From Physcomitrium patens (Eukaryota > Streptophyta > Bryopsida > Funariales > Funariaceae): 64,000 nt of DNA. The stretch lies in NCBI RefSeq assembly GCF_000002425.4, contig NC_037270.1:15399178-15463177 (forward strand), written 5' to 3'. The translations under genes were made by a program, and so were the position numbers. The notes beneath the pieces are model-generated. The model was not told the DNA's origin, made no database searches, and was given only the letters and a program-made list of their open reading frames with translations. Position 1 is the first letter of the stretch. The number at the start of each line of letters is the position of its first letter. Shown one piece after another: positions 143 through 52,052 of the stretch.

Positions 143-176
143 CTTCTTATAGAGTCATTTCTATTCTTCTCTTAGA

Positions 177-8267: not shown

Positions 8268-8270
8268 TAA

Positions 8271-9971: not shown

Positions 9972-10025
9972 AAAAATAAAGATAAAATCAACCGAAATCC
10001 AATACCTTCTACCACAAGCTTTCAG

Positions 10026-10038
10026 GTCGGGTTCACCA
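10026..10038 (-). promoter_or_regulatory. Primer binding site of inner M
   Basis: The minus strand reads TGGTGAACCCGAC, 4 nt from the 5' LTR. It starts with TGG, the complement of a tRNA CCA end. I cannot name the tRNA. The outer copy has decayed to TCGTGAATTCGAC. Confidence 0.6.
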
Positions 10039-10042
10039 CTTA

Positions 10043-14300: not shown

Positions 14301-14502
14301 GTGCTTGAAAAGATTCAAGCATGGTATAAACCTCTCTTGAATGAATCTCAACAATCTTATCATAATCCCCTAACCCAATAGATGTAATCAATTCCAATGA
14401 ATCTTCCAGTCCATTTTCTTCATAAATACCTAAAATCCTCTCATCATCTTGCAATGTACCTAACTTGCGTAATTCTCCTTCAATATTATATATTTTTTTT
14501 TT
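11394..14502 (-). pseudogene. pol of outer M, interrupted by inner M
   Basis: It has the same RT-RNase H-integrase order as the inner copy, and the 729-residue main segment (12265-14454) is identical in translation. The TAG stop at 12265-12267 and the His at the second integrase catalytic position are shared. Upstream of the shared tract, 11394-11637 differs from the inner copy at roughly one base in eight. At 11394 the frame breaks off at KRWFGP, and its continuation is 2474-2713. Confidence 0.87.
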
Positions 14503-14630
14503 TTTTTTTTAAAAATCATTAACTTTCTTATACATAATATTTCAATTCTCCAAAATATCAATAAAACTCGCATCAAAGGTACCTTCATCTCGCGAGAGTA
14601 CCTCCTCTTTTGTACCACCATAATCTCGCT

Positions 14631-15300
14631 TTACAATAGTACCTCTCCAAAATCCTTAAATCCTTCAACAATCTTTGGCAATGGTTTCTCCCTCAACATA
14701 TCTCGATTCCGTTCATGGTTAGGAGGTACTGTTAGAAATTGTACAGCTTTCCTCCCATCTTCGCTACGTACTCTTGCATAAGCAGAACCATCGTCAAGTA
14801 CTTTTTTTTTCCATCCGTATTGCCGTGATATAAGGTTGTCCTAAAATCAACGGATAAGACATTGTATCTTGAACAAAGAAATGTTGCTCTGTCGCAACAT
14901 CCTCAATCTAAATTTTGACATCTGGACAAGCTCCATATAATTTGCCTCATGTGTTATTAGCTGCTCGTATTGCCCATCCATGTTCCATATCAATTGGCCA
15001 TTTTTGCTTCTTATAAAGATCTTTAGACATGAGATTTATTTCAGAACCATGGTCGACTAAAGCAACAATTGGTTCTTCTATATCTCCTACTTTCATTAAT
15101 ATCTCTGTAGTTGCCCTTGCTCAATGCTTTCGAGTATAATGGCTCAAAGTTTCCATTTCATTATTACTATAATCTTCGAAACGTACTCGTTGATTATACC
15201 CATTTTTTTCATTTGTTCATTGCTTGTAACCAATATCAACCTCTTCTTCATCTTTATATATTCTTGCATCAATAGCATGACTCATTCCGGTTTCGCCCAT
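14631..15300 (-). pseudogene. Protease region of outer M
   Basis: It matches the inner protease, including the DHG active-site variant and three TGA stops. A T run near 14803-14812 has one extra base compared with the inner copy and shifts the frame; the coordinate offset between copies changes from 7032 to 7033 there. It cannot encode a working enzyme. Confidence 0.7.
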
Positions 15301-15303
15301 TAA

Positions 15304-17004
15304 TTACCTCTTTCGCACAATGCTGTCAATGATAACATCATGAAATTCCTTCTTTGCAATTTCCAAAACTTCTTTCAATGTGAATTCCACCTTAGCATTT
15401 AATATACATTCTTCCAACACCCCTTTCAAATTTTTTGCCGCTTCAATGTCAGAAAGTAGCTTATAAGTAATTAATTTGCCCTTATCTTTTGTTTCCTTTG
15501 TTTTTTCTTCCAATGATGCTGAGGTATCCTTTACATGCAATTTTTGTGAAGTTGCCTCCCGAGCCTTGTCTCCTCGAGTTTGCCTCTTAGAAGAATTTCC
15601 TTCTCTAGTATCATCAAAATTTCCTCGTCTCTTTTCTTCCATCAAAGCTTCATGTTGGCTCTTAGCAATATATGCATGAACTGAAAGAGACTCAACACGA
15701 TCCTCCCAACCTGTTGCACCTCGTATTGTAGGTACAGTCCTCAATAACGCTTCTCGAGGTAATTTCCCTTCTTGTATTGTAGAAATGGCAGAAGCCCAAA
15801 ACTCACTAGTTTTCGTACTTCCACCAAGTTCATCATCTACTCTAGCACCATAACTTGCACTTTTTCGTGCTGCTGTTTCATGCTCTTTTAAGTAATCTTG
15901 AACCAATGCTCTCATTCCTCTCTTGCCAAAATTGGTTTAAAGAAGATCCTCCCTATCTTTTAATGCTATCTTTCCATCTTTCCTGCAAATAATTCCTTGC
16001 CGTATCATATTATTAACTTCATTGCAATCATTTCTAGTGTGTGAAGCATTATTACACCAAATGCATCTTTGTACATATCCTTGTTTTGAAACATTCTTCA
16101 AATTATTTGTAGAAGTATTCTCTTCAAGTCTTGCCAATTTGATTTGAAGATCTTGCATTTCTCGTATAATTTCTTCCATCCTCATATCTGCCTTCTTTGA
16201 TAAGGATGTCGAAAGTTGAACTGTAGGCATTGTTGGTGCTGTTGTACGTACTGGAGCTTTGGGTGCTTGTACTATTTTCGGAATATTGCTCCTATCCTTC
16301 CTCCTTTCTCTTTTTGTAAGCAATCCCATTGCATCTTCAACGTTCTTCCACTTTGTTGTCAATCCTTCATCTTCTTCTTTGTCTTCAAGAAGGAATTCTA
16401 ATTTTCCTTGCTATTCTCCATGAGCAGCTTGAAGAAATAGATCAACTTTGTTCGGCTCCAATGTCAATTTTTCTACCTTCGATAATTGAGAGTACTGCCT
16501 CTCAAATTCCCTTAGAAGCTCTGTTGCTTGTAAATTCTTATTAGGCCGTTCAATCCATTCCAGAAACAGCTTCTTAGTAATGCGATCAGCATCTTCCAAG
16601 AAATATTTGTCTTTCAATGCATGTGAAAAAATCTCCCATGAATTCCCATAACAATCCGTAATCCATGTAATATGGTCTCTTATCTCCGGTATTGTGGCAA
16701 GTCCAAATAATTCAACCATTTTCTTCTCAGAAACCTGATTTAATTCCATTTCATGAACATAACATCTTAAATAGCTTGAAACATTCCTTCCATCAAATTG
16801 ATCAATTTTATTGACCACTGCTTGGAATGCTTTGGTTGCCAAAGCTTCCTTTCGATCATTGCTTTGTTGTTGCTGCATTGATAATGAGAAGGCTTGAAAC
16901 ATACTAGCAATAGACGGATCCATGTGCATATCTTGTCCTTTAGAAGAACCCCCACCAGAAACTCCTCCCAAAGATCCTTCAAAATTTTTATTTTTGTTCT
17001 CCAT
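15304..17004 (-). pseudogene. gag of outer M, several breaks
   Basis: Open pieces at 16411-17004 (N-terminal, MENKNKNFEG start), 15937-16362 (zinc knuckle CIWCNNASHTRNDC) and 15304-15915 (C-terminal, ending SIVRKR) together match the inner gag end to end. Between them lie stop codons near 16410 and 15936. The divergence from inner gag is several percent, much higher than in the adjoining pol. Confidence 0.83.
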
Positions 17005-17074
17005 AAAATAAAAATCAAATCAAACGAAATCCAATACCTTCCACCTCAAGCTTTCACGTCGAATTCACGACTTG

Positions 17075-18277
17075 TATCGTATTACGTGCTTTCTTGCTCG
17101 AGGATGCACCAAACGTCTAGCTGTAGAAGGTAGTATAGAGATTTGTTAATATTCAAGCAGTCTGTCAGTTTTTGACTGTTGAAATATAAACGATTGCAAG
17201 AATATATCGTAAATCTATATGGATGTCCTTCGACTGCTTGCTAAAATCCTTTTTGTTCTAGCCGGTAGGTCTCCAGACATTACAGAGAATCCCAAACAAC
17301 CCAATCTGCTAATCTCCGATACTGCTTTATACTTACAACCTTGTATCCACTGACTGTTTTGTTAGATTAACCCAAAAATTTTCATTCACTCCGCATACTC
17401 AATCCTATAGACACCTTTTTAATTCTTCAATCACAAATATAACTTCGATTTTACAAAACAATCAAGAGTAATCACACCTACTTCATTAAAAATCCTGATT
17501 CACAAGTACAACACTGATTTCAGCAATGATTGCCTCAGTCTTTTCAAAATCCTATGAAGAAAAAACTCCAATTCTCTGTCTTTTTTTCCCCTCAGAAGCA
17601 TGAAGCTAGCTCTCCGACCCTTAAAACCCTGATTCTCCATCTTTCATTTCTTAACCTATCTTCCCCTTTAATCCTAATTCTCCTCCTCTTTCAAATCCTA
17701 GCCTCTGAATTTCTTCAATCTTTCGTCTTGGATCTAGAATTGGCTCCATCGTCAGAGCTTTCTCCTCTATTTTTTGCCTTTTAAAAGGTTCTTTTTTTCG
17801 GAAACAACGTTCCCTGAAATGGCACAAAGAACATGACAGCCTGAAACGGAATCGAACTCCCATAATCGGGACCACATTGAGTCGCCCGACCAATTCAGGT
17901 CTCATATTGGTTAAGAGTCTTGTAATAAGACCTGGATGTTCCCGTAATTGGGTCAAATTGGTCCTTCACGTCAGATTGGCTAAGAGGCCCGTAGTAAGAC
18001 CTGGATGTTCTCGTAATTGGGTCAAATTAGTCCTTCGCATCAGCTCGCTCAATCATCGATTTAGTCCTTTCAATTCTATTGACTCCCACTATTGGACTCG
18101 AATGGAGCATTTTGTTACTGGTAAGTATGCCCTGACCGACTGTGATGGAGTGTCTGAACTGGCCCCTGAATATTGGCACTGGAATCGGTCGTTGCTCCCA
18201 ATATTCAAGGTAACTGAATATTAATAAAAGTCCCCTTTCTTTATATTTTCATGGTATACTCATGTTACAACAGGACA
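17075..18277 (-). repeat. 5' LTR of outer M
   Basis: This 1203-bp partner of 1210-2411 starts TATCG where TGTCG is expected (G to A) and ends GTTACAACAGGACA. It contains the paired 69-bp sub-repeats at 17907-18044. Protease sequence of chromovirus B resumes just after it. Confidence 0.85.
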
Positions 18278-21200
18278 CATTGCGCTTGGACAGTGAAACA
18301 TCGCAACAACAACCACATTCCTTTCTTTCCGCTCAAACTGCCCTTTGTTTTACAATCCCTTTGCTTATTGGCCCTCAAAAACTGAGAACCTTAGCATTAT
18401 TAGATTCAGGAGCATCTGCTTCTTTCTTAGACGAAGAATTTGCAAAGCATCATAAGATCCCTTTAGTACAAAAATCCAAACCTGTTCATGTTGAGGTCAT
18501 AGATGGACGACCTTTATTGTCTGGTAGTGTCACCCATGAATCAGAACCTATAGAAGTGATATTTAAGGGCCATAGTAGTCATATTATTTTCAATATTATT
18601 AAAACCCCATCAAATCCTGTTATTCTTGGTCTTTCTTGGTTGAAAAAGCATAACCCATCCATAGATTGGAAGTTGCGGAAGATGACCTTTCTCACAAAAC
18701 CACCCAAGAACAAGCCTAGTAGAAAATCCTGAATAGAGAAATCTTTATTTATTGGAGCAAGAGCGTTTATAAGATCGTCCAAGGAAGGCACACCGTTTGT
18801 CATTTATGCGGCTCCATCTACTCGGAAGAAGATCTCGACAACAAGTATACCGGAGCAATATAAGGATTTTAAAGACGTGTTTCAAAAGAAAAATACGGAC
18901 ATGCTACTGGAACACAGACCATATGATTGTGCCATAGACTTACAGGAAGGAGCACAACCGCCTTTTGGCCCAATCTACAATCTATCGCAGATACAGTTGG
19001 CGGAGTTGCGAAAGTACATCGACAAGAATCTAGCCAAGAACTTCATCCGTCATTCAAAATCGTCAGCTGGAGCACCTATCTTATTTGTGAAGAAGAAAGA
19101 TGGCTCATTGCAGATGTGCGTGGACTATCGAGGCCTCAACAAGGTAACAAAGAAGAATCGTTACCCGTTACCCTTGATTTTTGGTCTCTTAGAACAACTT
19201 GGACGTGCAAGGATTTTTACAAAAATTGATCTAAGGAGAGCTTACAACCTCGTACATATCAAGGAAGGAGATGAGTGGAAGACAGCGTTCCGTACAAGGT
19301 ATGACCATTTTGAGTATAATGTCATGCCCTTTGATCCTACCAATGCTCCAGCGGTCTTTCAACATATGATAAATGCCATTTTCCGAGAGTACCTTGACGA
19401 TTTTGTTGTCATCTATTTGGATGATATTTTGATATTCTCCAAAAATGAGGAAGAGCATGAAAAGCACGTTCGTTTGGTCTTGGAGAAACTACGCGAGCAA
19501 GGACTATATGCCAAGTTGGAAAAGTGTTTATTTCACCAAATAGAGATGGAGTTTTTGGGATTCGTTGTGACTACGGAAGGCTTGAAGATGGATGCCAAGA
19601 AGGTGGAAGCAATCGTGTCCTTAGAGGTTCCAAAGACAGTGAGAGACGTACATTGCTTTCTTGGCTTTGTAAACTTTTATCGGATTTTCATCAAGAATTA
19701 CTCTCAAGTTGCTGCTCTTGTCACTCAATTGACATGCAAGGATAAGCTGGAATGGGGACTTCTAGCGGAGAAGGCGTTTCAAGACCTAAAAATTGCATTT
19801 ATTACGGCTCCAATCTAGGTACATCCAGAGTTTACAAAAGCCTTTTATTTAGAAACTGATGCTTCGGATTTTTCTTTGGGAGTTGTACTTTCACAAATGG
19901 GAGAAGACAAGAAGCTCCATCTGGTTGCATTCTATTCTCAAAAGTTCTCTGCTGCTGAAATCAATTATGAGATCTACGATAAGGAACTTCTTACTATAGT
20001 GGATTCTTTCCAAGAATGGCGTCACTTTCTTGAAGGAGCTATATATCCAGTGACCGTTTATACAGATCACAAGAATTTGGAGTATTTCATGTCGGCTCAA
20101 GTTCTAAATCGATGTCAAGCTCGGTGGAGTATGTCGCTATCTAGGTTTGATTTTGTTATCACTTATCGACTTGAAAAGTAGCAAGGACTATTTGATGCCT
20201 TATCAAGGAGATCGTATCTTGTACCAAAGGTTGGAGAAGCAGCGTTTGATCAACAATGTACGATGTTGTTGAAGCCAAAGCAATTTTGGCTTTGCGCTAC
20301 TATTGTGCCAATTGATGTGACTTCCTGAATCAGGTATGTGCTGTGACCATTAAAGATTCAGTAGCCATTGATATCAAGCAGCGTGCCAATGATGACAAGT
20401 TCAAGGTGGAAGAAGATCTTTTATACTTTGAGGAGCAGTTGTAAATCTCGAAAGGACCAGCACGACTCCGAGTTCTTCAATCTCGCCATGATTTTCTAAC
20501 TGCGGGACATTTTAGATTCAACAAGACCTTGGAGCTTATTTCTCGAGATTTTTGGTGGCTCCAAATGTGGAAGGATGTGAAAGATTTTGTCCTCTCCTGC
20601 AACATTTTCTCAAGATCCAAGAATCCTCGGCATCGCCCATATGGACTCCTAGAGCCATTGCCGATTCCACGTTGACCATGGTCTTCAGTTTCCATGGACT
20701 TCATCACGGACCTTCCATCATCAAACTCATTTGACAACATCTTTGTCATAGTAGATCGGCTTACAAAGATGGTACACTTTGTTCCTTGCAAGAAGACATC
20801 CTCCAGTGAAGTCACAGCAAGGCTCTTTCTCAATAATGTGTATGGATATCATGGACTTCCAGATGATATCGTATCAGATTGAGGAACCCTATTCGTATCA
20901 AAGTTTTGGAGATCTCTCTTTGAGATACTGAAGGTGGATATCAAGCTTTCTTCGGCTTTTCATCCTCAAACTGATGGCCAAACGGGACGGGTGAACCAAG
21001 TCTTGAAAAAATACTTACGATACAGCATCAACTATCAGCAAGACGATTGGACCACATATCTGTTGCTAGTCGAGTTTGCATATAACAACACCTTCCATGC
21101 GTCGACTCAATACACACCATTCTTTTCCAACTTTGGGTATCATCCGAAGCTTGATTTATTGAGTCCGTCAACAAATAACAATCCAGCAGCTGAAAGATTT

Positions 21201-25829: not shown

Positions 25830-26379
25830 TGTCACGGACATATATTTACTATAATTGTTATCTAGGTGATATGAATAGGTAGAAGTAGATAAAAGTAGAT
25901 TAATTTCATAATACCTTCTAGGAAAGCTTTCTAAAAGCTTTATAGATGCTGTTTTGATTTTATATGTATTTATACTTGATTGGTAGGTTAGAAGCTTGGT
26001 CATCAAGTTAATCACATGCCACACGTGTTGATAGCTTGTAGAACAAGCTAATTATATGGTACACACATAGAAAATTTACCTTGCAAGTTAAGATATTTAT
26101 TGTGCAAAGTCAACACATTTTTGGAGGTCCTATAGAACGTCACCATGTAGCTCTTAGGTAGATAGTATATATTGAGGCAAGAGTGAAGCCTTCTTCACTC
26201 TTGTCAACTCCTTTCTTGCTTGTAGTCTAGTTTCAAGGGTCTTTAGTTTTTTTGTCTTTTGGCAATAACCATTCCAGTTTCTTTCTTAATATATATATTT
26301 AATTAATTTTATTTTGTCATCTTTCTTGGAAAAAAGTTTCACTTGTTTATTTATTTTTATCAACTTCTTATTCATGATA
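25830..26379 (+). repeat. 5' LTR of Y
   Basis: The LTR begins TGTCACGGACATA and ends TTCATGATA. The TATA-like TATATATT is at 26166-26173, followed by an inverted repeat GGCAAGAGTGAAG / CTTCACTCTTGTC (26177-26205). Its second arm lies where the RNA should start, about 31 nt after TATA. Confidence 0.87.
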
Positions 26380-26381
26380 GA

Positions 26382-26393
26382 TTGACAAGAATG
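26382..26393 (+). promoter_or_regulatory. Self-primer binding site of Y
   Basis: TTGACAAGAATG lies 2 nt after the 5' LTR. It is the reverse complement of CACTCTTGTCAA (26196-26207) at 11 of 12 positions, and the mismatch is a G-to-A change. This fits Tf1/sushi-type priming by the element's own RNA 5' end. Confidence 0.7.
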
Positions 26394-26398
26394 CACTT

Positions 26399-26508
26399 AC
26401 AATATTAGAGCTTTGTCTACTCTTGATTAAGAGCCGATTATTCCTTTCTCTTGATAAGACATGAGCATATTAAAAGTTACAGATTACCCTCTTCTAAACT
26501 AATATTGT
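26399..26508 (+). repeat. Leader module of Y (single copy)
   Basis: The module is closed by ACAATATTAG (26399-26408) and CTAATATTGT (26499-26508), 10 of 10 paired. The inner hairpins are AAGAG/CTCTT around CCGATTATTCC, and TTAAAAG/CTTCTAA around TTACAGATTACCCT. It has the same plan as the modules of X and B. Confidence 0.72.
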
Positions 26509-26591
26509 TCTTAATATTTTCTTTATTTTCAAGTCCTTTCTTCTATTTGTATTGAGTGATATTAAACATCTTCTCTTTTTTAAGAGTTAAC

Positions 26592-27596
26592 ATGTCAGAA
26601 TTTAGTGAAATAAAGAGTGCAATGGCACAAATGTAAGAATAATTGAAGGATTTAATGCTTACGATGTATCAACTCAATTTACCACCACAAGCAGCAACAA
26701 GATTGGCAGGAAGTGAAGATATAGAAATAATTGGAGCTGCTTCAACATCTGCACCAAATCATGTTCCTTCTCCTATGATGGAACGCCCTTCCAATATTAG
26801 AGAACCAAAAATTACCCTACACGAGAAGTTTGACTACACCAAATCAAAGTTTAGAAGATTTATCAATCAAGTACAACTTGTGATTGAACTTCAACTCCAA
26901 AGCTATCAAACTCTAAGATCGCAAGTTAAATTTATTGGTACGCTTCTTTCAAGTTTAGCATTAACATGGTTTTTATCTTTTCTTGAATGATGAGATCCAA
27001 TATTGGATAATTTGGAGACGTTTTTGGTAGAGTTTCGATCCGTGTATGGAGAGCATGATGCAATTCATGTTGCAACTAATGAAATCCATATTTTGCAACA
27101 AGATAATTAATCAGTAATATTATATTCTTTATAGTTTCAACAACTTGCAACTGATATTAAGTGGAATGATGTTGTACTTATTAACCAATTTTTCTACCGA
27201 TTACAATATGAGGTAAAAAAATCAATGCTCAACTTACTTGATCTTCATACATTCAGTCAAGCAATTGACTTTGTTGTGAAGTATGACAATCATTTTTTTG
27301 AATTTCAATATGAGAATTGTATAAGTAGATCCCAACGTTACTATAAATCAATAGCAACACCAACATCTCTTCAACACATACATTTGGAAGTAGAGGATAT
27401 GCAAATTGATGTGGTATGTTTCAAACCTCTTATTGAGTAAAAAAAGATTAGTCATTGTTAGGAAGGATAATGCTTATATTGTGGAGAACCTAAGTACATT
27501 GTTCAACATTGTCCAAAGAAACGATACAACTATAAAATAAGAAGTATGGCTATCAAAGAAGATAGTATGTTGAAAAATGAGTTTGTCTAGCTACAA
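26592..27596 (+). pseudogene. gag of Y, degraded
   Basis: The ATG at 26592 (MSEFSEIKSAMAQM) is followed by an early stop. A long open piece runs 26643-26990 and another 27225-27440 (TFSQAIDFVVKYDNHFFEFQ). The zinc knuckle near 27475-27520 reads CLYCGEPKYIVQHC. The His position is replaced by Tyr, so metal binding is probably lost. The layout follows X gag. Confidence 0.8.
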
Positions 27597-29387
27597 TAGG
27601 GACCACGTGGCAGGAACCTTATACAACACCTAGTGAAGGTCCTATTCTTTCCTTAGAACCCTCTCTTTATTTTACGATAAATGTTATTTTAGGACCTAAA
27701 TATCACAAAGCCTCTACCTTATTAGATTTAGGAGCCTCAACATGTTTCTTAGATGAAGGATTTGCTAAAAGACATAGCATATTTTTAATGAAGAAAACTA
27801 AACATATTCATGTAGAAGTCATAGATGGTTGTCCGTTGTCTTTAGGAGATGTTACTCATGAAATCTTTCCTATAGAAGTAGCAACTAATGGTCATAGTAG
27901 CTTTGTAATATTTAATATCATTAGATCTCCCTCTAATCTAGTGATTTTAGATTTATCATGGCTAAAAAAATATAATCCTAAAATAGATTAGACTTCTCGT
28001 AGTCTTGATTTTTTTGAAAGTATAATTAAGAACATAGTTAATCAAGTAGAAAGTTATAAGTCTAATACAATTAAACCTGTATTTGTAGGTGCAAGAGCTT
28101 TCTTGCATGCTACAAAAGAAGGATCACCTTGTGTCATCTATGATACATTTGTTTCTATTGATGGAAAGACTTCAAGTAAAATTCCAAGCTAATATCAAGA
28201 TTTTCAAGATGTATTTGATATGAAGAATGTGAATATTCTTCTGGAGCATCATTCCTATGACTGCTTAATTGACCTTCAAGAAGGAGCACAACAACCATTT
28301 GGACCAATCTACAATTTATCACAAAATGAATTGGCTGAACTCAAGGAGTATATTAAAGAGAATTTGGCCAAGAACTTCATATGCTATTCCAAATCACCAG
28401 CAAGAGCTCTAATTTTATTTGTGAAGAAAAATGATGGATCATTACAGATGTGTGTCGATTATTGAGGATTCAACAAAATCACCATCAAGAATAAAAACCC
28501 GCTATCTTTGATATCTGGACTCTTTGATCAATTGAATCAAGCTAAGATTTATACAAAAATAGATCTACAAAGAGCATACATTTTGATATGCATCAAAGAA
28601 GAAGATGAATGGAAGACTGCATTTTAAACAAGGTATGGACATTTTGAATACAATGTCATGCCTTTTGGACTTACAAATGCACTAGTAGCATTCCAAAATC
28701 TAATGAATGATGTCTTTTGGGAGTTTTTAGATGATTTTGTTGTTTGTTACCTAGACAATATCTTAATCTATTTTAAAAATACAGAAGAATATGAACTTCA
28801 TATTCGTTGTGTATTACAAAAACTAAGAGATGTGGGACTCTATGCCAAGATAAAAAAGTGTGTATTTCACACTACTCAAGTCGACTTCTTAAGATACATC
28901 ATTTCAAATGATGGACTTATGATGGATCCTAAAAAATTTCAAGCTATTATGGATTGAAAGTTCCAAAAAACGGTAAGAGATGTCTAATTTTTTTGGGATT
29001 TGCCAACTAATATCGGATCTTCATGAAAGACTTCCCTCAAGTTGCAGCTCCACTTACACGTTTGACTTATAAAGACAATCTTCAATGGAATCAAGAAGCA
29101 ACAGTAGCATTTGAAGGTTTGAAAACAGACTTTGATTTTGCACCAAACTTGTATTGCATCAATTTTTCTAAGCCATTTTCTATGGAAACAAATGCATCAG
29201 ACTTTGCTTTGAGTGCCGTATTGTCACAAATAGAAAAAAATGAAAAACTTCATCCAATAGCTTTTCATTCTAGAAAATTTTTAGCAGCCGAGATCAACTA
29301 AGAGATTCATAAGAAAGAACTTCTTGCAATCATAGATTTGTTTCAAGAATGGTGACATTATCTAGAAGGTGCTCCTAGTCTAGTCAC
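27597..29387 (+). pseudogene. Protease, RT and RNase H start of Y pol
   Basis: Protease LLDLGASTCFLDEGF (Ser of DSG changed to Leu) lies around 27720-27760. RT shows NFICYSKSPARALILFVKK, MPFGLTNALVAFQ and a YLDN in place of YLDD at 28749-28760. RNase H begins METNASDFALSAVLSQ. Stops occur near 28461, 28627 and 28957. The gene is cut at 29387 by X inside RNase H (LEGAPSLVT) and resumes at 35892. Confidence 0.85.
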
Positions 29388-29850
29388 TGTTAGGGACATA
29401 GTCCTTAGACCTTTCTAGAGACAAGTTTCTAGAACCTTCTAGAAAGAAGTCTCTAGAAACTTCTAGAAGATTCCTTGAATATTCTCTTAGAATATTCTTT
29501 AAAGATTCCCTAAAGATTCCCTAAAGATTCTCTTAGAAGGCTCTAGAAGATTCTTAGAATATTCTAATAGATTCTAGGAAGTTACTTGAGAAGCTTCCTA
29601 GCTCTTGGGTAGTTGCTCGAGAAGCTTCATAGTTCTTGGGAAGCTTCTTAATGCGCTTCCTTAGAACCATAGGCCAGTAGTATATATAGGAATCGAGGCT
29701 GAAGAGTTCTTCAGTCTCGACAATACATCTCTTGAAGCTCTAGCTCAATTCTCTTGGCGTTGCTCTTGTACTCATCTGATAATCTAGTACTTGTCATTTC
29801 TTCTTGAACTTCTTGTTTAGATTTCTTGTTTGTATTTTTGGTCCGTGACA
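29388..29850 (+). repeat. 5' LTR of X
   Basis: This 463-bp LTR has one more copy of an 11-bp unit (CCTAAAGATTC, near 29508-29530) than the 3' LTR, which explains the full length difference. TATATATAGG is at 29681-29690. Repeated TTCTAGAA and AGATTC motifs fill the U3 part. Confidence 0.93.
29681..29723 (+). promoter_or_regulatory. X core promoter and start-site inverted repeat
   Basis: The TATA box is at 29681. Then TCGAGGCTGAAGA (U3 side) and TCTTCAGTCTCGA form a 13-bp inverted repeat with one G-T mismatch (a G-U pair in RNA). AGTCTCGACAA starts 32 nt after TATA and is the likely first sequence of the RNA. It is complementary to the site at 29853-29863. Confidence 0.68.
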
Positions 29851-29852
29851 GT

Positions 29853-29863
29853 TTGTCGAGACT
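29853..29863 (+). promoter_or_regulatory. Self-primer binding site of X
   Basis: TTGTCGAGACT lies 2 nt after the 5' LTR. It is a perfect 11-nt reverse complement of AGTCTCGACAA (29713-29723) in the same LTR. Tf1/sushi-type elements prime reverse transcription with the first 11 or so nucleotides of their own RNA; position and length fit that mechanism. Confidence 0.78.
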
Positions 29864-29874
29864 ACCTTTATTTT

Positions 29875-30248
29875 AATATCAGAGCTGAATCCTTCTTGTT
29901 TGAGAGCGGATTACCCCTCTTCTTGAAGGTATTCTAGCGCTTTAGGGGTTGCGGATTACCTTCCTCTAAACTGATATTTTCTCAATCACAATATCAGAGC
30001 TTAGTTCTTTGAGGCAGAGAGTGGACTACCCCTTTCCTTGGAGATACTTGAGCATTCTAAGGGTTGCGGATTACCCTCTCTTGGACTGATATTAATTCCT
30101 TCTTTTTGTTTAGCATAGCTAGTTAAAAAGACTGTTAACATCGATTTCAGAGCTTTGCCTTCTTGATAGAGTGCGGATTACCCCTCTTCTCGAAAGCATT
30201 GAGGCATTTTTAGAGGTTGCGGATTATCCTCCTCTAAAACTGAAATCG
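29875..30248 (+). repeat. Three leader modules of X
   Basis: The modules are at 29875-29978, 29990-30093 and 30142-30248 (104, 104 and 107 bp). The closing stems are AATATCAG/CTGATATT twice and CGATTTCAG/CTGAAATCG in the third, a paired change. Each contains a short hairpin around CGGATTACCC (or TGGACTACCC) and an 8-bp hairpin around TTGCGGATTACC. The second-hairpin arms are TTTAGGGG/CCTCTAAA, TCTAAGGG/CTCTTGGA and TTTAGAGG/CCTCTAAA. Confidence 0.8.
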
Positions 30249-30367
30249 TTTAGTGTTTTTTTTCTTTTCTCCGAGTAGGTTTTAGTGACAGGTAGTGCTA
30301 CAATTTTCTCCAAGAGACTTAGCAATTTCTTCTTCTCTCAAAATTTTAATCCATCTATTCTCTAAAT

Positions 30368-31417
30368 ATGGAAGTAGACCAGATCATAGACAGTGCATCT
30401 CCACAAGTAGACAATAGAGTGGCAACTCTTGTAGATCTTCAAGCTCTTATGAATAGTGTACGAAAGGAGATTGCATTTCTTCGCAATCCAAGTAAAGAAC
30501 CTCAAATTGATCTAGTGACCGAAGAAGCTAGACGCGAAATTCATAGCCTACAACAAGAGATTATTCGACTGAGAGAAGCAAGACATGTATTACATATGAC
30601 CTCTATGGATATTTCAAAGATTAGTACGAAAGAACCAAAAGCGAGTATGCCAGACAAGTTTGACGGAATAAGAGCCAACTTTCGAGGTTTTGTGCAACAA
30701 GTACGGCTTTACCTACGCCTATACCCTTCTCGTTATCCGAATGGATTTACCCAGGTTGCTTTCATAGGTACTCTTCTATCAGGAAATGCTCGCTCTTGGT
30801 TTGCTCCACTATTGGAGAAGGATTCTCCAATATTGTACGATCTAGAGGCTTTCATAGAGAGACTTACTACTGCGTTTGGAGATAGTGATCGAGAAAGAGT
30901 GGCTGAAAGAAAGATACAAAATCTGCGACAAGGATCACGTTCTACTGCAATCTATGCTGCAGAATTTCAACAGCTTACATGTGATCTTGATTGGAATGAT
31001 AAGGCATTCATGACACGATTTCGATATGGACTGAGAGATGATATCAAGAACTTATTGATCACCATGCCTAGGGCGGATACTTTAGAAGAACTTATATCTC
31101 AGGCAATTATTTGTGACAACTGCCTCTTTGAATTACGACAAGAAAGACGATCAGGCTGGAGAAATGATGGAGCATTTGCTACATTTTCAAAAGGTCCAGA
31201 GAATCACTCCACAAATCTTGAACCCATGCAAATTGATGCGGTACGTTTCAAACCCCTCACAGTTGAGGAAAAGAAGCGACGGTTTGAACAAAACTTGTGT
31301 TTATATTGTGGAGAAGCGGGCCATAAAGCTGTAGATTGTCGGAAGAAACAGAAGCCTCAAACAACAAGACTCAGGAGTACAAGCATGCAGGAAAACAAGG
31401 ACGCCCAGCCACAATAG
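30368..31417 (+). CDS. Gag polyprotein of X (intact)
   Basis: 349 codons run from ATG to TAG without a stop. The N-terminal third has a heptad-like segment (EIHSLQQEIIRLREAR) that may form a coiled coil. The middle is a retrotransposon Gag capsid-like region (GFVQQVRLYLRLYP, FIGTLLSGNARSWF, LRDDIKNLLITMP). A perfect zinc knuckle CLYCGEAGHKAVDC spans residues 311-324. Gag would form particles and bind the RNA, perhaps the leader modules. The last 91 nt overlap the pol frame, which lies in -1. It is the only intact gag in the window. The ATG follows the leader directly, and the length agrees with B and Y gag. Confidence 0.9.
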   Translation: MEVDQIIDSASPQVDNRVATLVDLQALMNSVRKEIAFLRNPSKEPQIDLVTEEARREIHSLQQEIIRLREARHVLHMTSMDISKISTKEPKASMPDKFDGIRANFRGFVQQVRLYLRLYPSRYPNGFTQVAFIGTLLSGNARSWFAPLLEKDSPILYDLEAFIERLTTAFGDSDRERVAERKIQNLRQGSRSTAIYAAEFQQLTCDLDWNDKAFMTRFRYGLRDDIKNLLITMPRADTLEELISQAIICDNCLFELRQERRSGWRNDGAFATFSKGPENHSTNLEPMQIDAVRFKPLTVEEKKRRFEQNLCLYCGEAGHKAVDCRKKQKPQTTRLRSTSMQENKDAQPQ

Positions 31418-34400
31418 GGACCGTGCAGCTGAACATCTCAACATCCAAAATTAATCAAGGTCCCTTTCTCTCAGTTCAACCTTCAGATTGTTTTATGGTA
31501 CCTTTACATCTGGGTATTCAAGAACTACAAGTCGATGCTTTATTAGACTCGGGTGCATCCGCTTGCTTTATAGATGAAGAGTTTGCCAAGCTTCACAATA
31601 TTTCTCTTGTAAAGAAACTTAAGCCTGTCCATGTAGAAGTCATAGACGGACGACCATTGTCTTCGGGCAATGTTATCCATGAAACTAAACCATTGAAGGT
31701 ACGTCTTGAAAACCATGAGAGCAATATTGTGTTTAATGTTATCAAGACCCCTTCATGTCCTATCATTTTGGGACTATCTTGGCTTGATAGATATAATCCA
31801 TTCATAGATTGGAAGTTGCGGAAAGTGACATTTCCAACAAACTCCTTGAAGGTGGAATCTGCCAAAACAATGTCTAGAAACAAATTCTTGTTTATAGGTG
31901 CAAGGGCTTTCATGAAGGAAGCCAAGCAAAATACACCTCTTGTCATCTTCGCAACTCCGACTCGAGAAGATGCAACTCCGACTTTGGTTATTCCAAAGCA
32001 GTATGAAGAATTCAAAGATGTCTTTGAAAAGAAGAATGCTGATATGCTGCCAGAGCATTGACCCTATGACTGTGCCATTGAATTACAAGAAGGAGCACAA
32101 CCACCTTTTGGACCAATCTACAATTTGTCGTAGACAGAGTTGACTGAGTTGCGGAAGTACATTGACGAGAATCTAGCCAAGAACTTCATCCATCATTCGA
32201 AGTCGCCAGTTGGGGCACCAATCTTATTTGTGAAGAAGAAGGATGGCTCACTACGGATGTGCGTGGACTATCGAGGTCTCAACAAGGTGACAAAAAAGAA
32301 TCGCTACCCACTGTCTTTGATCTCTGGTCTTCTAGAACAACTTAGGCGTGCAAGGATCTTTACAAAGATTGACCTAAGGGGAGCTTATAACCTTGTGCGA
32401 ATTAAGGAAGGAGATGAATGGAAGACAGCGTTCCGAACAAGGTATGGCCATTTTGAATACAATGTCATGCCATTTGGTCTTACTAATGTTCCAGCGGTCT
32501 TTCAACATATGATGAATGACATCTTTCGAGAGCATCTAGATGATTTTGTTGTCATCTATCTAGATGATATTTTGATATTTTCTAAGAACGAGGAAGAACA
32601 TGAGAAGCACGTTCGTCTGGTACTCAAAAAACTACGGGAACGAGGACTCTATGCCAAATTGGAGAAGTGCTTATTTCACCAAACTGAGATGGAGTTTTTG
32701 GGATTCATCGCGACTATGGAAGGCTTGAAGATGGATCCAAAGAAGGTGGAAGCAATCATGTCTTGGGAAGTTCCGAAGACGGTTAGGAACGTACAATGTT
32801 TTCTTGGATTTGCTAACTACTATCAGATCTTCATCAAAAATTATTCTCAAGTTGCTGCCCCCCTCACTCGGTTAACGCGTAAGGACAAGCTCAAATGGAG
32901 ACCTATCGCAGAAAAAGCATTTCAAGATTTGAAGATGGTATTTACTACAGCTCCAATCTTGGTACATCCGGACTTTACAAAGGCCTTTTATTTGGAGACA
33001 GATGCTTCGGATTTTGCTTTGGGAGCTGTACTTTCACAGATGGGCGTAGATGAGAAGCTCCATCCAGTTGCGTTCTATTCTCAAAAATTCTCTGCTGCTG
33101 AGATCAACTATGAGATCCACGATAAGGAACTCCTTGCTATAGTAGATTCTTTCCAAGAGTGGCGCCACTTTCTCGAAGGAACTGCACATCCAGTGACCGT
33201 GTATACGGATCACAAGAATTTGGAATATTTTATGTCGGCTCGGATTTTGAATCGGCGTCAAGCTTGATGGAGTATGTCGCTATCCAGGTTTGACTTTGTT
33301 ATTACTTATCGGCCTGGGAAGCAATAAGGGTTGTCCGATGCATTATCAAGGAGATCATATCTCGTGCCAAAGGCTAGAGATGCAGCATTTGATCAACAGT
33401 GCATGACATTGTTGAAGCCAGAGAAATTTCGGCTCAACACAGCTATTGTACCAATTGATGCTGACTTCCTCGACTAGGTACGGGCCGCAACCATTGAAGA
33501 TTCTCTAGCCCTTGATATCAAGCAACATGCTAGTGATGATAAATTCAAGATGGAAGGAGATCTAGTATATTTTGAAGAGCAGTTGTATATCCCAAAAGGG
33601 CCAACACGACTCCGAGTTCTTCAATCTCGTCATGACTTTCCAGCTACGGGACATTTTGGATTCAATAAGACCTTGGAACTTATTTCCCGCAATTTCTAGT
33701 AGCCTCAAATGTGGAAGGATGTGAAAGATTTTGTTGTATCTTGTGACATTTGTTCAAGATCCAAAAACCCTCGACATCGGCCTTATGGACTTCTACAGCC
33801 ATTGCCTATTCCGCGCCGACCATGGTCTTCGGTTTCCATGGACTTTATTATGGATCTACCACCATCGAATTCATTTGACAGCATTTTTGTTGTCGTAGAC
33901 CGGCTTACAAAGATGGCGTATTTTGTCCCTTGCAAGAAGACATCGTCAAGCGAAGACACAGCAAGACTCTTTCTTGATAATGTGTATCGATATCATGGTC
34001 TACCAGATGATATCGTATCGGATCGAGGAACCCAGTTTGTGTCAAAGTTTTGGAAATCTCTTTTTGAAATATTGAAGGTAGATATCAAGCTTTCTTCGAC
34101 ATTTCATCCTCAAACGGACGGCCAAACAGAACGGGTGAATCAAGTTTTAGAGCAATATTTACGTTGCACCATCAACTATCAACAAGATGATTGGGTCGCA
34201 TATCTACCGCTAGCCGAGTTCGCATATAACAACACCCTTCATGCGTCAACTCAACAAACGCCATTCTTTTCCAATTATGGATACCATCCGAAGCTTGACT
34301 TATGCAGTTCGTCAACGATTAACAATCCGGCAGCTGAAGGATTGGTGAAGGAGCTTTCGCAGCTTCAAACTACATTGAAGCTTCAATTGCAAATTGCCCA

Positions 34401-34896
34401 AGAATCTTACAAGGCATCCGCGGACAAATTTCGGAATCAGACACCTAAATTCACGATTGGAGACAAAGTTTGGCTGCTTCGACGAAATATTAAGACCAAG
34501 CGGCCATGTGACAAATTGGACTATCAAAGATTGGGACCATTTGTTATCCAGAAGCAGATCAATCCTGTAGCGTATCGTCTGGAGTTACCAGCTACTATGA
34601 AGGTACATCCTGTCTTTCATGTTTTTTTGTTGGAGCCTTATCGAGAATCGTCTTTTCCTGGAAGAGTACAATGTCCACCACCTAGCATAGAAATAGAGAA
34701 CCACAAAGAATACGAGGTGGAAAAGGTCCTGGATTCACGGCAAAGACGGGATAAATTAGAATACTTTGTGCATTGGAGCGGTTACGATATTAATGAACGA
34801 ACATGGGAGCCGGCCGAAAATCTCGCAAATGCACCGCAAAAGGTACAGGAGTTTCATCGACGATATCCTGAGAAACCCAAGCCAGTTCGACGATAG
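31327..34896 (+). pseudogene. pol of X: PR-RT-RH-INT-chromodomain in one frame with seven stops
   Basis: A single reading frame (-1 to gag) runs 3570 nt with no indel. Protease is LLDSGASACFIDEEF. RT has KIDLRGAYNLV, MPFGLTNVPAVFQ and YLDD. RNase H begins ETDASDFALGAVLSQ. Integrase has a zinc region (ATGHFGFNKTLEL, SCDICSRSK) and catalytic MDFIMDLPP, SDRGTQF and QTERVNQ. The chromodomain is LEYFVHWSGYDINERTWEP near the end. Stops are TGA 32059, TAG 32131, TGA 33265, TAA 33325, TAG 33475, TAG 33697 and TAG 33700. Each fits one C-to-T or G-to-A change. The chromodomain would steer integration to marked chromatin. Confidence 0.92.
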
Positions 34897-35041
34897 CTTC
34901 TTACTGAAGCTTGTTCATCCAGAAAACAGAAAAGAGGAGAGAGCACCACCAAAATCCATAGTTGATGTAGTCATTCTCTCCAAGATAGCGTAGAACTTTG
35001 TTAGTAGCCCAAGTTTGTTCTTATTGTTTTAGCCTTTGAAT

Positions 35042-35389
35042 ATGGATAGCCAAGATACTACACTTGTCATGTCATCTCAAGCAACTAGCTCACGAAGACG
35101 ACCGCGAGATGAAGAACCGCTTGCACCACGACGACGTCGAAGGATTCCGAGCAACAGATCGCTGGTGATTGTATTTGAGGTCGAACCTGCCTACAATGGT
35201 CAACCAGAAGGAGTGTTTGCAAGACAATTTCACAATGAAGACACGGAGGTTCATGCTTGGTCAGAAGTTGAAGGCGTGGGCCACTACCGTTGGCTTCAAG
35301 GACCATTGAATCACTTGCCTCGTGAACAACAATTGGAGTTCATAGCAGAGGTTATGCGACAGATCTTCATTTTCTTGCGTTGGTATTGA
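35042..35389 (+). CDS. ORF3 of X: small conserved protein of unknown function
   Basis: 115 codons run from ATG to TGA, 145 nt after the pol stop and 36 nt before the polypurine tract. The N-terminal third is basic (SSRRRPRDEEP, APRRRRR) and could be a nuclear signal or bind nucleic acid. The C-terminal two thirds carry LVIVFEVEPAYNGQPE, HNEDTEVHAWSEVEG, GHYRWLQGPLNHLPREQQ and FIFLRWY. Counterparts occur in B (21885), Y (37784), W (43168) and U (57718, minus), so the ORF is an inherited part of this lineage. No signal peptide or membrane span is visible, so an envelope role is unlikely. I do not recognise the family. Confidence 0.75.
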   Translation: MDSQDTTLVMSSQATSSRRRPRDEEPLAPRRRRRIPSNRSLVIVFEVEPAYNGQPEGVFARQFHNEDTEVHAWSEVEGVGHYRWLQGPLNHLPREQQLEFIAEVMRQIFIFLRWY

Positions 35390-35425
35390 CTGACGATAAC
35401 ATTACTTCTCGGAGACCTCGAAGCT

Positions 35426-35439
35426 AAAAGAGGAGGTGA
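35426..35439 (+). promoter_or_regulatory. Polypurine tract of X
   Basis: AAAAGAGGAGGTGA lies directly before the 3' LTR and would prime plus-strand DNA synthesis. Confidence 0.85.
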
Positions 35440-35891
35440 TGTTAGGGACATAGTCCTTAGACCTTTCTAGAGACAAGTTTCTAGAACCTTCTAGAAAGAA
35501 GTCTCTAGAAACTTCCAGAAGATTCTTTGAATATTCTCTTAGAATATTCTTTAAAGATTCCCTAAAGATTCTCTTAGAAGACTCTAGAAGATTCTTAGAA
35601 TATTCTAATAGATTCTAGGAAGTTACTTGAGAAGCTTCCTAGCTCTTGGGTAGTTGCTCGAGAAGCTTCATAGTTCTTGGGAAGCTTCTTAATGCGCTTC
35701 CTTAGAACCATAGGCCAGTAGTATATATAGGAGTCGAGGCTGAAGAGTTCTTCAGTCTCGACAACACATCTCTTGAAGCTCTAGCTCAATTCTCTTGGCG
35801 TTGCTCTTGTACTCATCTGATAATCTAGTACTTGTCATTTCTTCTTGAACTTCTTGTTTAGATTTCTTGTTTGTATTTTCGGTCCGTGACA
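35440..35891 (+). repeat. 3' LTR of X
   Basis: The 452-bp LTR is followed by GTCAC, the second copy of the target duplication. Compared with the 5' LTR it has six transitions and lacks one 11-bp unit. AGTCTCGACAA is at 35754-35764. Confidence 0.94.
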
Positions 35892-37690
35892 GTCACCGTA
35901 TATACGGATCATAAGAACCTTAATTATTTTATGTCAATATATTTTTTAAATTGTTGCCAAGCCCATTGGAGTATGTCTTTGTCAAGATTCGAATTCAAGA
36001 TCACTTATCGACTGAAAAAATAATAAGGTTTGTCAAATGCGCTCTCTAGATGAACTTACTTTGTACCAAAAGAAGGAGATGCTACTTTTAATCAACAATG
36101 GACAATTCTCTTGAAGCTAGAGCATCTTCATCTTTGAGCAATAAAATCAACACTAACTATTGATTTAACTTTTATTAAACAAGTTCAGTCAAGTATGTCT
36201 TTTCATCTTCTTATTCATGATATTAAGGGATATCCTTCAAAGTCTCATGATACTTTCAAGTTTGAATTCAAGAACAATCTACTATATTTTGAAGATTGCC
36301 TATATGTTCCAGAAGGTGAAGTTTGATTATGTATTCTTCAAGCTCATCATGACTTTCTAGTAGCAAGATATTTTGGATACAATAAAACTTTGAAACTAAT
36401 ATCTAGAGAGTTTTGGTGATTACAAATGTGGAAAGATGTAAATTTTTTTGTTCAATCATGCGATGTTTGTTCAAGATCAAAAACTTGTCATCATTGACTT
36501 TATGAACTTATTCAACCATTATCTATTCCAAAACAACCATGGTCTTTTGTTTCTATGGATTTCATCACAAATCTTCGAATCTCAAGTGCTTATGACTCTA
36601 TATTCATGATTGTAAATCGTTTTATCAAGATGATATATTTTGTACCATGTACAAAATCTATCATAGGTGAAGAAACAACTTAGCCTTTTCTTGACAACAT
36701 CTATTTTTACCATGGATTATCCAAAGATATTATATCAGATAAGAGAACTCAGTTTGCATGAAGATTTTGGTAGACTCTTTTCAAGATTTTAAAAGTAGAT
36801 ATAAAACTATCTTCGGCATTCCATCCTCAAACTGATGGACAAATGGAGCGAGTTAATCAAGTTTTGGAATAGTATTTAAAATACACCATCAACTACCAAC
36901 AAGATGATTGTACAACTCTTTTGCCATTGGTAGAGTTTGCTTATAATAACATGGTACATTCTTCTACAAAATAAACACATTTTTTTGTCAATTATGGTTA
37001 TCATCCATAACTTGATACTTTTGACTTTTTGAAAGTTGATAAATCTGCAAAAAAAGATATGACAGATCATTTATTAGAGCTACATGCAACAATGAAGGTG
37101 TAATGAAAAGAAATTCAAGAACAACAAAAGATCAATGTAGATGTTTATCGAAAGGAACAACCACCATTCCACGCGGGTAACAAGGTATAGTTACTTTGTC
37201 GTAATATCAAGACCACTTGTCTTTGTGACAAGTTGGACTATCGAAGGCTTAGACCATTTTCTATTTTTATATAAATTAATCCAGTTGCATATCGTTTACA
37301 CCTATCGGAGTCAATAAAAATCCATCCAGTGTTCCACATGTCTCTTCTAAGACCATACAAGACAGTGTCATACTATACAAGACACTGAGTCAATGAAAAA
37401 CCATACAAGACAGTGGACATACCAAGAAAATCTATCATAAAAATCCATCCAATATTCCACATGTCTCTTCCAAGACAGTGGACATACGAAGAAGAAGACA
37501 AGCTCCACCTCCTCCTATTGAAGTGGAAGAAGTCTTAGATTCAAGGCGGCACCAAAATAAATTGGAATATCTTATGCATTGACATAGATATGATATTAGT
37601 CATATACATGGAAGCTAGTAAAGAATCTTGCAAATGTAGCAAAGGCAATGGAGGATTTTTAGTGATGACATCCATCAAAATTAAGATAAA
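35892..37690 (+). pseudogene. RNase H, integrase and chromodomain of Y (right piece)
   Basis: It resumes with [14 protein letters not shown] (RNase H), directly continuing 29387. Integrase shows a zinc region (LISREF, then SCDVCSRSK), a catalytic MDFIT stretch near 36560 and HPQTDGQMERVNQV. The chromodomain relic VLDSRRHQNKLEYLMH lies around 37525-37580. Between 37340 and 37500 a segment (CATACAAGACAGTG and neighbours) is repeated two to three times, a local duplication. Stops are frequent, mostly TAG, TAA or TGA where X has Gln, Trp or Arg. Confidence 0.85.
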
Positions 37691-37783
37691 AACCTTTTCT
37701 GTAAAAGAAACAAGATCTAGGTAAGATAAAATTATACTCTCAATCCTTATTTATAGCTTCTTTATAGTTGTGATGCTAACAAG

Positions 37784-38206
37784 ATGGAGAACCAATAACC
37801 AGCAGGATCGATTGAAGAGCCTTTGTTTGCTGATCTACTAGACAAGACATTACGATTGTCACAACCTTCAAGTCGATGCAATCGAGATGAAGATCCTCAA
37901 GGACGACATATTCTTCCTCAAATAAATGGCAAAATATAATGCGTTTGATATCACAACGTTGGAAGAGACTCCCGATGTTTATTGATTTTAATAGAGGTAA
38001 GAATAACTCTTGACGGTATTCCAAATGTTTTATTTGAAGGAAGTTATGAAAGCCTCAACAACGATCAAATAATTAGGTAGTCTTCCCACCTTAGTATGGA
38101 ACCCTATCGATGGTTGATAAGCCCTATCAATCATCTTTGAAGAGAACAAAGATCAAAGTATGTGGCAAATATAATTTGTGGTATCTTAGACTTCCTTGAT
38201 ATGTGA
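37784..38206 (+). pseudogene. ORF3 of Y, stops but same frame throughout
   Basis: A 141-codon frame with several stops and no net indel. It shares DLLDKTLRLSQPSS with U and the C-terminal pattern EV....DG.P, then YRWLISPINHL and REQRSKYVANII with X and U. The TAG before SSHLSMEP stands at the Trp of the X motif AWSE. The N-terminus is longer than in X and less basic. Confidence 0.7.
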
Positions 38207-38247
38207 TCACTGCTCCTCGTGGAACTCGTCCCTAAAAAGGGGGATAA

Positions 38248-38796
38248 TGTCATGGACATATATTTACTGTAATTGCTACCTAAGTGATATGAATAGATAG
38301 AAGTAAGTAAAAGTAGATTAATTTCATAATATCTTCTAGAGAAGCTTTCTAAAAGCTTTATAGATGCTGCTTTAACTTTACATGTATTTATACTTGATTG
38401 ATAGGTTAGAAGCTTGGTCATCAAGTTAACCACATGCCACACGTGTTGGTAGCTTGTGGAACAAGCTAATTATGTGGTGCACACATAGAAAATTTGCCTT
38501 GCAAGTTAAGATATTTGTTGTGCATAGTCAACACATTTTTGGAGGTCCTATAGAATGTCGCCACGTAGATCCTAGGTAGATAGTATATGTAGAGGCAAGA
38601 GTGAAGCTTTCTTTACTCTTGTCAATTCCTTTCTTGCTTATAGTCTAGTTTCAAGGGTCTTTGTTTTTTTATCTTTTGGCAATAACCATTCAAGTTTCTT
38701 TCTTAATATACATGTTTAGTTATTTTTATTTTTTCATCTTTCTTTGAAAAAAGTCTCACTTGTTTATTTGTTTTTATGAAGTTCTTGTCCTTGATA
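38248..38796 (+). repeat. 3' LTR of Y, with polypurine tract
   Basis: The 549-bp LTR starts TGTCATGGACATA and ends CCTTGATA. It is preceded by AAAAAGGGGGATAA (38234-38247) and followed by the CCTTC duplication. The start-site inverted repeat is GGCAAGAGTGAAG / CTTTACTCTTGTC. Its change to T in the second arm still pairs as G-U. Confidence 0.87.
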
Positions 38797-47694: not shown

Positions 47695-49230
47695 ATGTCA
47701 ACATTCGGGTGTAGCGCTGAGGATGTGACCACTCTGCAAGGGTTTCTGGGCAACACGGCGAACGCCGCTGGATTGAGCAGTTTCCTCTGCAAAAAGCTAG
47801 ATGACGTTTCTTCGCAGTTGGATGCCACAACCCTGGCAGTGGATAATACGTATCTGCTCTTCTCAGCGTATCTCGTGTTTGCTATGCAGCTAGGATTCGC
47901 CATGCTATGCGCAGGGTCTGTCCGAGCCAAGAACACCATGAACATCATGCTCACAAACGTGCTGGACGCAGCCTGCGGCGGTCTTTCCTACTACATCTTC
48001 GGTTTTGCTTTCGCGTTCGGCATAGGATCCAAAACTAATGGCTTTATCGGCCACTACAACTGGGCCCTGAGAGGATACCCGAATGAATCATTCGACTACA
48101 GCTACTTCTTATTCCAGTGGGCCTTCGCCATCGCCGCGGCGGGGATCACATCTGGATCTATTGCAGAGCGGACGCAGTTTGTTGCTTACCTGATATACTC
48201 GTCTGTGTTGACAGGATTCGTGTATCCAATCGTCTCTCACTGGCTGTGGTCTACTGACGGATGGCTGTCTGCGTCGAAATCTGTGGGACCAGGGTCGCTA
48301 CTGTTCGGTAGCGGCGCCATCGACTTCGCAGGCAGCGGCGTCGTGCACATGGTGGGCGGCATTGCAGGGTTCTGGGGCGCTTTCATCGAGGGTCCTCGTA
48401 TAGGCCGTTTCGATAAGACAGGGAACCCCATGGTCTTCCGGGGGCACAGCGCGACGCTGGTAGTGCTCGGAACTTTTCTGCTGTGGTTCGGATGGTATGG
48501 GTTCAACCCTGGCAGCTTTGTTAATATCTTGGTTCCGTATTCGGGCAACCGCGGTGCCTGGACTGGGGTCGGCAGAACGGCGGTGACGACCACGTTGTCT
48601 GGGTGCACTGCCGCAGTTACGACCTTGTTTGCGAAACGCCTCCTCCACAATCACTGGAGTGTGCTTGACGTGTGCAATGGCTTGTTGGGCGGATTCGCTG
48701 CCATCACTGCTGGCTGCGCCGTAGTAGCACCTTGGGCTAGCATCATCTGCGGGTTTGTCTCCGCGTGGGTCCTCATCGGGCTCAACAAACTCGCAGCTCG
48801 TGTGCACTATGACGACCCTTTGGAAGCGGCCCAGCTTCACGCCGGGTGCGGTGCCTGGGGCCTCATCTTCGTCGGTCTCTTTGCGCAACAGAACTACATC
48901 CTGCAGATCTATGATGGAGCTGGCGACCGACCCCATGGACTATTCATGGGCGGCGGGGGAAAGCTCCTGGCAGCCCAGATTATCGAAATTCTGGCCATCT
49001 TCGGCTGGGTTACCGTCACCATGGGGCCCCTCTTCTTTCTTCTGAAGCTGTTTAATCTGCTGCGCATCTCCCCCGAAGATGAAATGGCTGGACTGGACCT
49101 AACCCGGCACGGCGGCACAGCCTACATCCACCATGATGGTTCCGATCACCCCATGCACATGCACTCCATGAACGGCCAGAAACGACCCAATGAAGGACCT
49201 GGAGGCAACTATGACGGTACCAATGTGTAA
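47695..49230 (+). CDS. AMT1: AMT1-type high-affinity ammonium transporter
   Basis: 511 codons in one exon. An in-frame TAG 18 nt upstream fixes the ATG. The protein imports ammonium across the plasma membrane, works as a trimer, and is expected to have 11 membrane spans with the N-terminus outside. Visible landmarks are the first span [35 protein letters not shown] with pore His218, the second pore His382 in [22 protein letters not shown], and the cytosolic [13 protein letters not shown]. In that last motif Thr470 is the residue whose phosphorylation closes plant AMT1 trimers. Length and N-terminal Cys (CSAEDV) fit AMT1 rather than AMT2. The C-terminal tail is rich in His, Met, Asn and Gly. 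Its codon and base composition is far more GC-rich than the flanks. Confidence 0.96.
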
Positions 49231-52050: not shown

Positions 52051-52052
52051 GT

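Follow-up and report, generated by a model that had tools for sequence, protein, structure and literature searches.

Matched changes in the predicted RNA 5' end and in the primer-binding site point to probable self-priming in Tcn1-like chromoviruses of the moss Physcomitrium patens

The window analyzed here is a 64,000-nt stretch of the Physcomitrium patens genome (NC_037270.1, positions 15,399,178 to 15,463,177, forward strand). It contains one LTR retrotransposon, X (29388-35891), inserted within another, Y (25830-38796), and each has its own 5-bp target duplication. A third element, V, is, to judge from its letters, a decayed member of a Y-like family. The features of the three elements are as follows.

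25830-26379, plus strand: Y 5' LTR, with the 5-bp duplication CCTTC
26176-26207, plus strand: Y start-site hairpin and R arm
26196-26207, plus strand: Y R arm
26382-26393, plus strand: Y primer-binding site, TTGACAAGAATG, with one letter that is probably decayed
29388-29850, plus strand: X 5' LTR, with TG...CA ends and the target duplication GTCAC at 29383-29387
29681-29688, plus strand: X TATA box, 32 nt upstream of the R arm
29694-29724, plus strand: X start-site hairpin, composed of the U3 arm (29694-29705), the loop (29706-29709), the 3' arm (29710-29721) and then the remainder of the R arm
29713-29723, plus strand: X R arm, AGTCTCGACAA, the predicted RNA 5' end and self-primer
29853-29863, plus strand: X primer-binding site, TTGTCGAGACT, beginning 2 nt past the 5' LTR
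29875-30242, plus strand: X leader, with three copies of a unit of about 105 nt that folds as a three-way junction
30368-31417, plus strand: X gag (Retrotrans_gag, Ty3_capsid)
31486-34896, plus strand: X pol, encoding protease, reverse transcriptase (RT), RNase H, integrase and chromodomain, broken by in-frame stops in this copy
35042-35389, plus strand: small extra X ORF of 115 amino acids, between the chromodomain and the 3' LTR
35440-35891, plus strand: X 3' LTR, followed by GTCAC at 35892-35896 and carrying a complete copy of the U3-R hairpin at 35734-35764
38248-38796, plus strand: Y 3' LTR
51874-52064, plus strand: V R arm (at 51874) and primer-binding site (52053-52064)

Aligned with each other over 452 positions, the two X LTRs show 6 differences, every one a transition; the two Y LTRs show 50 over 549, of which 40 are transitions. 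A further Y-family LTR lies on the minus strand at 57299-57700. Other LTR retrotransposon copies occupy about 1-18300, also on the minus strand, with repeats about 7.03 kb apart; the leader of this family has GTGGTGAACCC (also GTGGTGAACCCGACC) after a plausible LTR end, which resembles a tRNA-type primer site. On the plus strand at about 47690-49230 there is an ammonium-transporter-like gene, by reading seemingly intronless, with a GC content of 45-52% against 19-33% in the adjoining 2-kb bins.

X is a chromovirus, that is, a Ty3/gypsy LTR retrotransposon with a chromodomain, as the sequence-only reading of this DNA had stated. Pfam searches, run for pol in pieces, identify gag, protease, RT, RNase H, integrase and chromodomain, the last lying 3' of the integrase (RVT_1, 2.9e-39; rve, 3.5e-10; Chromo, 2.6e-17). 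A Tf2-1-like SH3 domain is present besides the chromodomain, and the closest solved structure to the RT is that of Ty3 (2.1e-78). The 115-residue ORF has no Pfam match. Y, W and Y of the X chromodomain align with the CDYL residues of the aromatic cage, the cage-forming positions being those that we take from HP1. Of the 120 best among 7960 RT hits, those with a name come from fungi, amphibians, algae, amoebae or a metagenome bin, and none is from a seed plant. A search of viral contigs for relatives gave seven pattern matches, none of which was confirmed.

The R arm and the primer-binding site of X, AGTCTCGACAA and TTGTCGAGACT, are exact reverse complements over 11 of 11 positions. In Y a different primer pairs with its site at 11 of 12 positions, and in V 9 of 12 are kept, as is seen by direct reading. 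All three pairings had been claimed by the sequence-only reading, together with the 32-nt distance from the X TATA box and the 2-nt distance from LTR to site, and all were found as described. AGTCTCGACAA occurs again at 35754, in the X 3' LTR, and at 22546, in another LTR. The mismatch in the Y copy of the window is probably decay, because the commonest letters of the Y family pair at all 11 positions. The duplex has a predicted energy of -16.2 kcal/mol in X. In the Y family the commonest pair reaches -17.0, and that of the copy in the window -11.1. The RNA starts of X and Y are predicted from their spacing to the TATA box (30-32 nt).

The X pairing was equaled in none of 10,000 dinucleotide-shuffled LTRs. 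With Y, 11 of 12 pairs are reached anywhere in the LTR by 46 of 10,000 shuffles, and at +25 to +40 of the TATA box by 2 of 10,000. Control leader sites match their own LTR equally well in 0 of 600 cases for X and in 6 of 600 for Y, so that the Y copy of the window is weak evidence when taken alone. The positions can also be left free: any 11-mer lying 26-37 nt past a TATA box was accepted if its exact complement lay 90-330 nt downstream. Over the window and 68 loci, which had been picked as relatives of X and Y, this rule returned four pairs, all of them either that of X or that of Y read in overlapping frames, and one pair in a reversed, uncomplemented control.

Copies of the elements were collected from the whole genome (470,438,890 bases in 101 contigs). 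There are 336 exact occurrences of the 14-mer TTGTCGAGACTACC, whose first letters are the X site, against two of its reversed control. The X sample comprises 38 copies including that of the window: 30 are the best by similarity (40 scored, from 2955 first-look candidates) and 8 were chosen by the exact site and are thus no independent evidence for that site. Complementarity of R arm and site is 11 of 11 in 34 of the 38 copies; its loss in other intact copies had been named by the earlier reading as evidence against self-priming. The Y sample comprises 31 copies including that of the window, from 30 loci (40 scored, from 6746 first-look candidates). Here 12 of 12 positions pair in 4 of 31 copies and 11 of 11 in 8 of 29 distinct copies, and the commonest letter of each column pairs at 11 of 11 columns. 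None of the 20 V copies, taken from 40 scored places, pairs at 11 of 11, the best reaching 10, as would be expected of copies that look old and decayed. All three samples are biased toward well-preserved copies by the way in which they were found. V was considered as a third primer type and rejected: by eye it retains the Y primer, with unmatched changes on the two sides.

Alignment of 73 distinct copies (24 X, 29 Y and 20 V, identical copies omitted) allows the R arm and the site to be compared column by column. Standard pairs fill 92.9% of 803 cells. Sliding one strand by 1-3 columns lowers this to 33.0-42.5%, and shuffling lowers it to 83.6%, with none of 500 shuffles as high as the observed value. 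The covariation statistic, suggested by the sequence-only reading as a check, gives a score of 0.266 against 0.120 in shuffles, again reached by none of 500. Two other counts do not stand out: six pairs changed on both sides, against 4.5 in shuffles (15 of 500 reach six), and further pair types, where 494 of 500 shuffles reach the observed value. Between X and Y three columns differ, and all three are double changes (G-C to C-G, C-G to U-A and A-U to U-A), which bears out the earlier statement that both partners changed together. The X primer matches the Y site at only 8 of 11 positions, and the Y primer matches the X site likewise at 8 of 11. The change from X to Y counts as a single evolutionary contrast between two families rather than as a series of independent events. 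If plus-strand synthesis copied the primer into the site, that alone could hold R and site in step; in that case the R arm would still be the primer.

These features suggest, with a probability of roughly 0.88, that X, Y and V prime reverse transcription with their own RNA, that is, by self-priming of the Tf1/sushi type in a Tcn1-like chromovirus. Transcription would begin about 30 nt past the TATA box, and the RNA would start with the R arm (AGTCTCGACAA in X and ACTCTTGTCAA in Y). This 5' end would fold back and pair over 11 bp with the site located 2 nt past the 5' LTR, the RNase H of the element, a domain present in X pol, would cut after nucleotide 11, and the freed 3' end would be extended into U5 to give minus-strand strong-stop DNA. 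What is seen in the sequences themselves is that R arm and site are complementary, where they lie, that most X copies keep the match, that both sides changed between families, that a standard tRNA site is missing and that the domains are those of a chromovirus; where the RNA begins, its cleavage by RNase H and priming as such are inferred from Tf1. Predicted folds of the RNAs weigh on the other side. The fold of a 164-nt X RNA, which is only moderately good, contains the primer helix, with 9 of 200 shuffles as good; in the 658-nt X leader the helix is present in the centroid and absent from the minimum-energy fold; and the fold of the Y RNA does not stand out from shuffles (65 of 200).

Downstream of the site, the leader unit of about 105 nt is predicted to fold as a three-way junction with two GCGGATTACC hairpins. 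X has three copies and Y one, at the corresponding place from about 26401, and units are also present in loci L001-L068. Of 200 shuffles, 199 fold less well than a single X unit. In a set of 30 units, out of 116 distinct ones, changes on both sides are seen at 8 of the 16 predicted pairs. A search of 29600-30400 against Rfam gave no known RNA family up to E = 1. The unit is perhaps a packaging or Gag-binding signal. Four matches to it at unexpected places were considered as further families; one proved to be another Y copy and three are not leaders.

The leader also bears on whether copying might be primed by a tRNA of the host, or by a fragment of one, at the self-primer site or at the run TATCAGAGC, 14-17 nt beyond it. 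The usual plant initiator-tRNA site is TGGTATCAGAGC, and TGG is required for the tRNA 3' end. TATCAGAGC resembles that site; the X leader has it in two places and most Y copies in one. Against this, TGG is missing near the LTR junction in 72 of the 73 copies, and the TATCAGAG run forms the conserved outer stem of the leader unit and covaries with the strand that it pairs with. On the latter ground the idea that TATCAGAGC is a relic of a tRNA site was set aside as the less likely reading. The tRNA search that the earlier reading had called for gave no convincing fit among 18 tRNA genes (of 20 fetched from 63 scored and 25,691 first-look candidates), a set that does not include the initiator tRNA. 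The best of them matches the X site at 9 of 11 positions (a tRNA-Asp on a contig of organellar size, the match being internal) and the Y site at 8 of 12. Priming by a tRNA is thus judged very improbable. tRNA genes also lie on two contigs that look organellar, 105,340 and 112,500 bases long.

The R arm also takes part in a second predicted helix, a hairpin formed with U3 across the predicted transcription start. In X it has 12 bp and a predicted energy of -18.9 kcal/mol, and its complementarity is reached by 3 of 5000 shuffles; in Y it has 13 bp and -19.7 kcal/mol, with 2 of 5000. The stretch from TATA box to R is the sole alignment between X and Y LTRs with E below 0.01 (57 columns, 72%, E = 1.5e-5). 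In the same 73 copies U3 and R are paired in 92.9% of 875 cells, against 41.9-52.2% when slid, and the covariation score is 0.289 against 0.151 in shuffles, reached by none of 500. By two further counts, pairs with changes on both sides (5 against 5.2) and kinds of pair (17 against 16.5), the copies look like shuffles. Of the R columns that differ between X and Y, 26 and 30 have matching changes in the U3 arm and in the site. At column 32 the site matches the change in R, and the U3 pair only passes from U-A to G-U. The title of the sequence-only reading had the U3 arm co-varying, and the score and the two matched columns uphold it.

A scan for hairpins after TATA boxes on both strands of 579,378 bases, at loci mainly chosen as relatives of X, Y and V, returned 129 hits including overlaps (72 X-like, 47 Y- or V-like and 10 other); its mirror control returned 9, of which 8 are at one simple repeat. 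A third LTR type, seen in one copy (L028, 2861-2940), has a TATA box and a 12-bp start-site hairpin with other U3 letters. One of its pairs upstream of the start is G-C where X has A-U. No primer site was seen for it within the 3230-base piece.

Could the pairing of R and site be purely structural, serving packaging, dimerization or translation control, with some other primer starting the copying? The covarying helices of the U3 arm and the leader indicate that the whole 5' region is structured, as this explanation would have it. It must also account for a site that lies in X, Y and V at the position required of a primer, 2 nt past the LTR, and for a junction at which nothing else resembles a primer site, and it is given as little credence as priming by a tRNA. 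The least likely explanation is that a promoter DNA palindrome (a protein-binding or start-site element) is the main conserved feature and the pairing with the site follows since R is part of it: the hairpin core is indeed the sole X-Y LTR alignment with E below 0.01, but this leaves unexplained a site outside the LTR that followed the changes in R, at column 32:219 too, where U3 went only from U-A to G-U.

If the elements do prime with their own RNA, the hairpin may tentatively be given a role in a three-part lock, a proposal that we regard as rather doubtful. The self-primer would sit inside the hairpin across the transcription start. The 5' copy in the RNA would begin within the 3' arm of the hairpin and so be free to pair with the primer site. 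The copy in the 3' LTR would keep the hairpin entire and be locked, unable to compete or mis-prime, since prediction gives the hairpin (-18.9 kcal/mol in X) greater stability than the primer duplex (-16.2). Relevant to this are the changes in the U3 arm, which match R at two of the three positions that changed in both R and site, and the A-U to G-C double change that L028 adds, wholly upstream of the start. Should the hairpin hold up, the lock would suggest how an RNA with two copies of the primer uses only the 5' one.

The published systems are compared here as described in the excerpts of the cited papers that were available. Tf1 of fission yeast resembles X in that its RNA 5' end, which in X is a predicted one, is complementary over 11 nt to a site beside the 5' LTR, in that it has no tRNA site, and in its chromodomain integrase (PMC7175516, PMC10085805). 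The Tf1 primer is 11 nt long and is released by a cut (PMC7175516). Two further duplexes flank the primer duplex of Tf1 in a "pretzel" (PMC10085805), and these were not found in X and Y: in a simple duplex test of the two window copies and five Y relatives the 14 best duplexes beat few shuffles (23, 26 and 32 of 300 shuffles in the best cases; 264 and 128 of 300 in X). The hairpin across the predicted start site is described here for X and Y. Tj1 of Schizosaccharomyces japonicus also has a site complementary to the mRNA 5' end (again predicted in X), and self-priming has been proposed for it (PMC4600332); unlike X, which is known here from sequence alone, Tj1 has been shown to be active.

Self-priming has been predicted in plants in the TAR lineage of Ty1/copia elements (Houba, Osr-1; PMC6317226), which, unlike X, belong to another superfamily. 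SM-Tcn1 of Selaginella is a Tcn1-type element, as X probably is, and like X has TG...CA LTRs; for it, unlike X, neither a tRNA site nor evidence of self-priming is given in the available text of Novikova et al. 2010 (PMC2864245). In host and mechanism X resembles the Tcn1-clade chromoviruses of mosses and club mosses, which share with it a moss host, a chromodomain with an aromatic cage and predicted self-priming (PMC6317226). According to the part of Neumann et al. 2019 available, most of these elements are without tRNA sites and self-priming is predicted for them from a stretch of the 5' LTR complementary to at least 10 bp beginning 0-5 bp after the LTR (PMC6317226). Such a stretch is present in X (11 bp, 2 nt after the LTR) and likewise in Y and V. 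The sequence-only reading, of Tf1/sushi-like self-priming in a plant chromovirus, is thus strengthened as to the pairing, by the paired changes between families and the tRNA site missing in 72 of 73 copies, and it does not stand as a new proposal for plants. For plant Tcn1 elements the mechanism has already been published as a prediction; what is added here is the family-level covariation and the predicted start-site hairpin. Neither was recognized for such elements in a literature search made largely among papers outside subscription. RLG1 of P. patens is an abundant, chromodomain-bearing element that is expressed in protonema (PMC7466625). Plant self-priming has so far rested, in the text available, on a search for complementarity (PMC6317226); paired changes between families are stronger evidence of true pairing, and they single out the exact nucleotides to test in laboratory moss.
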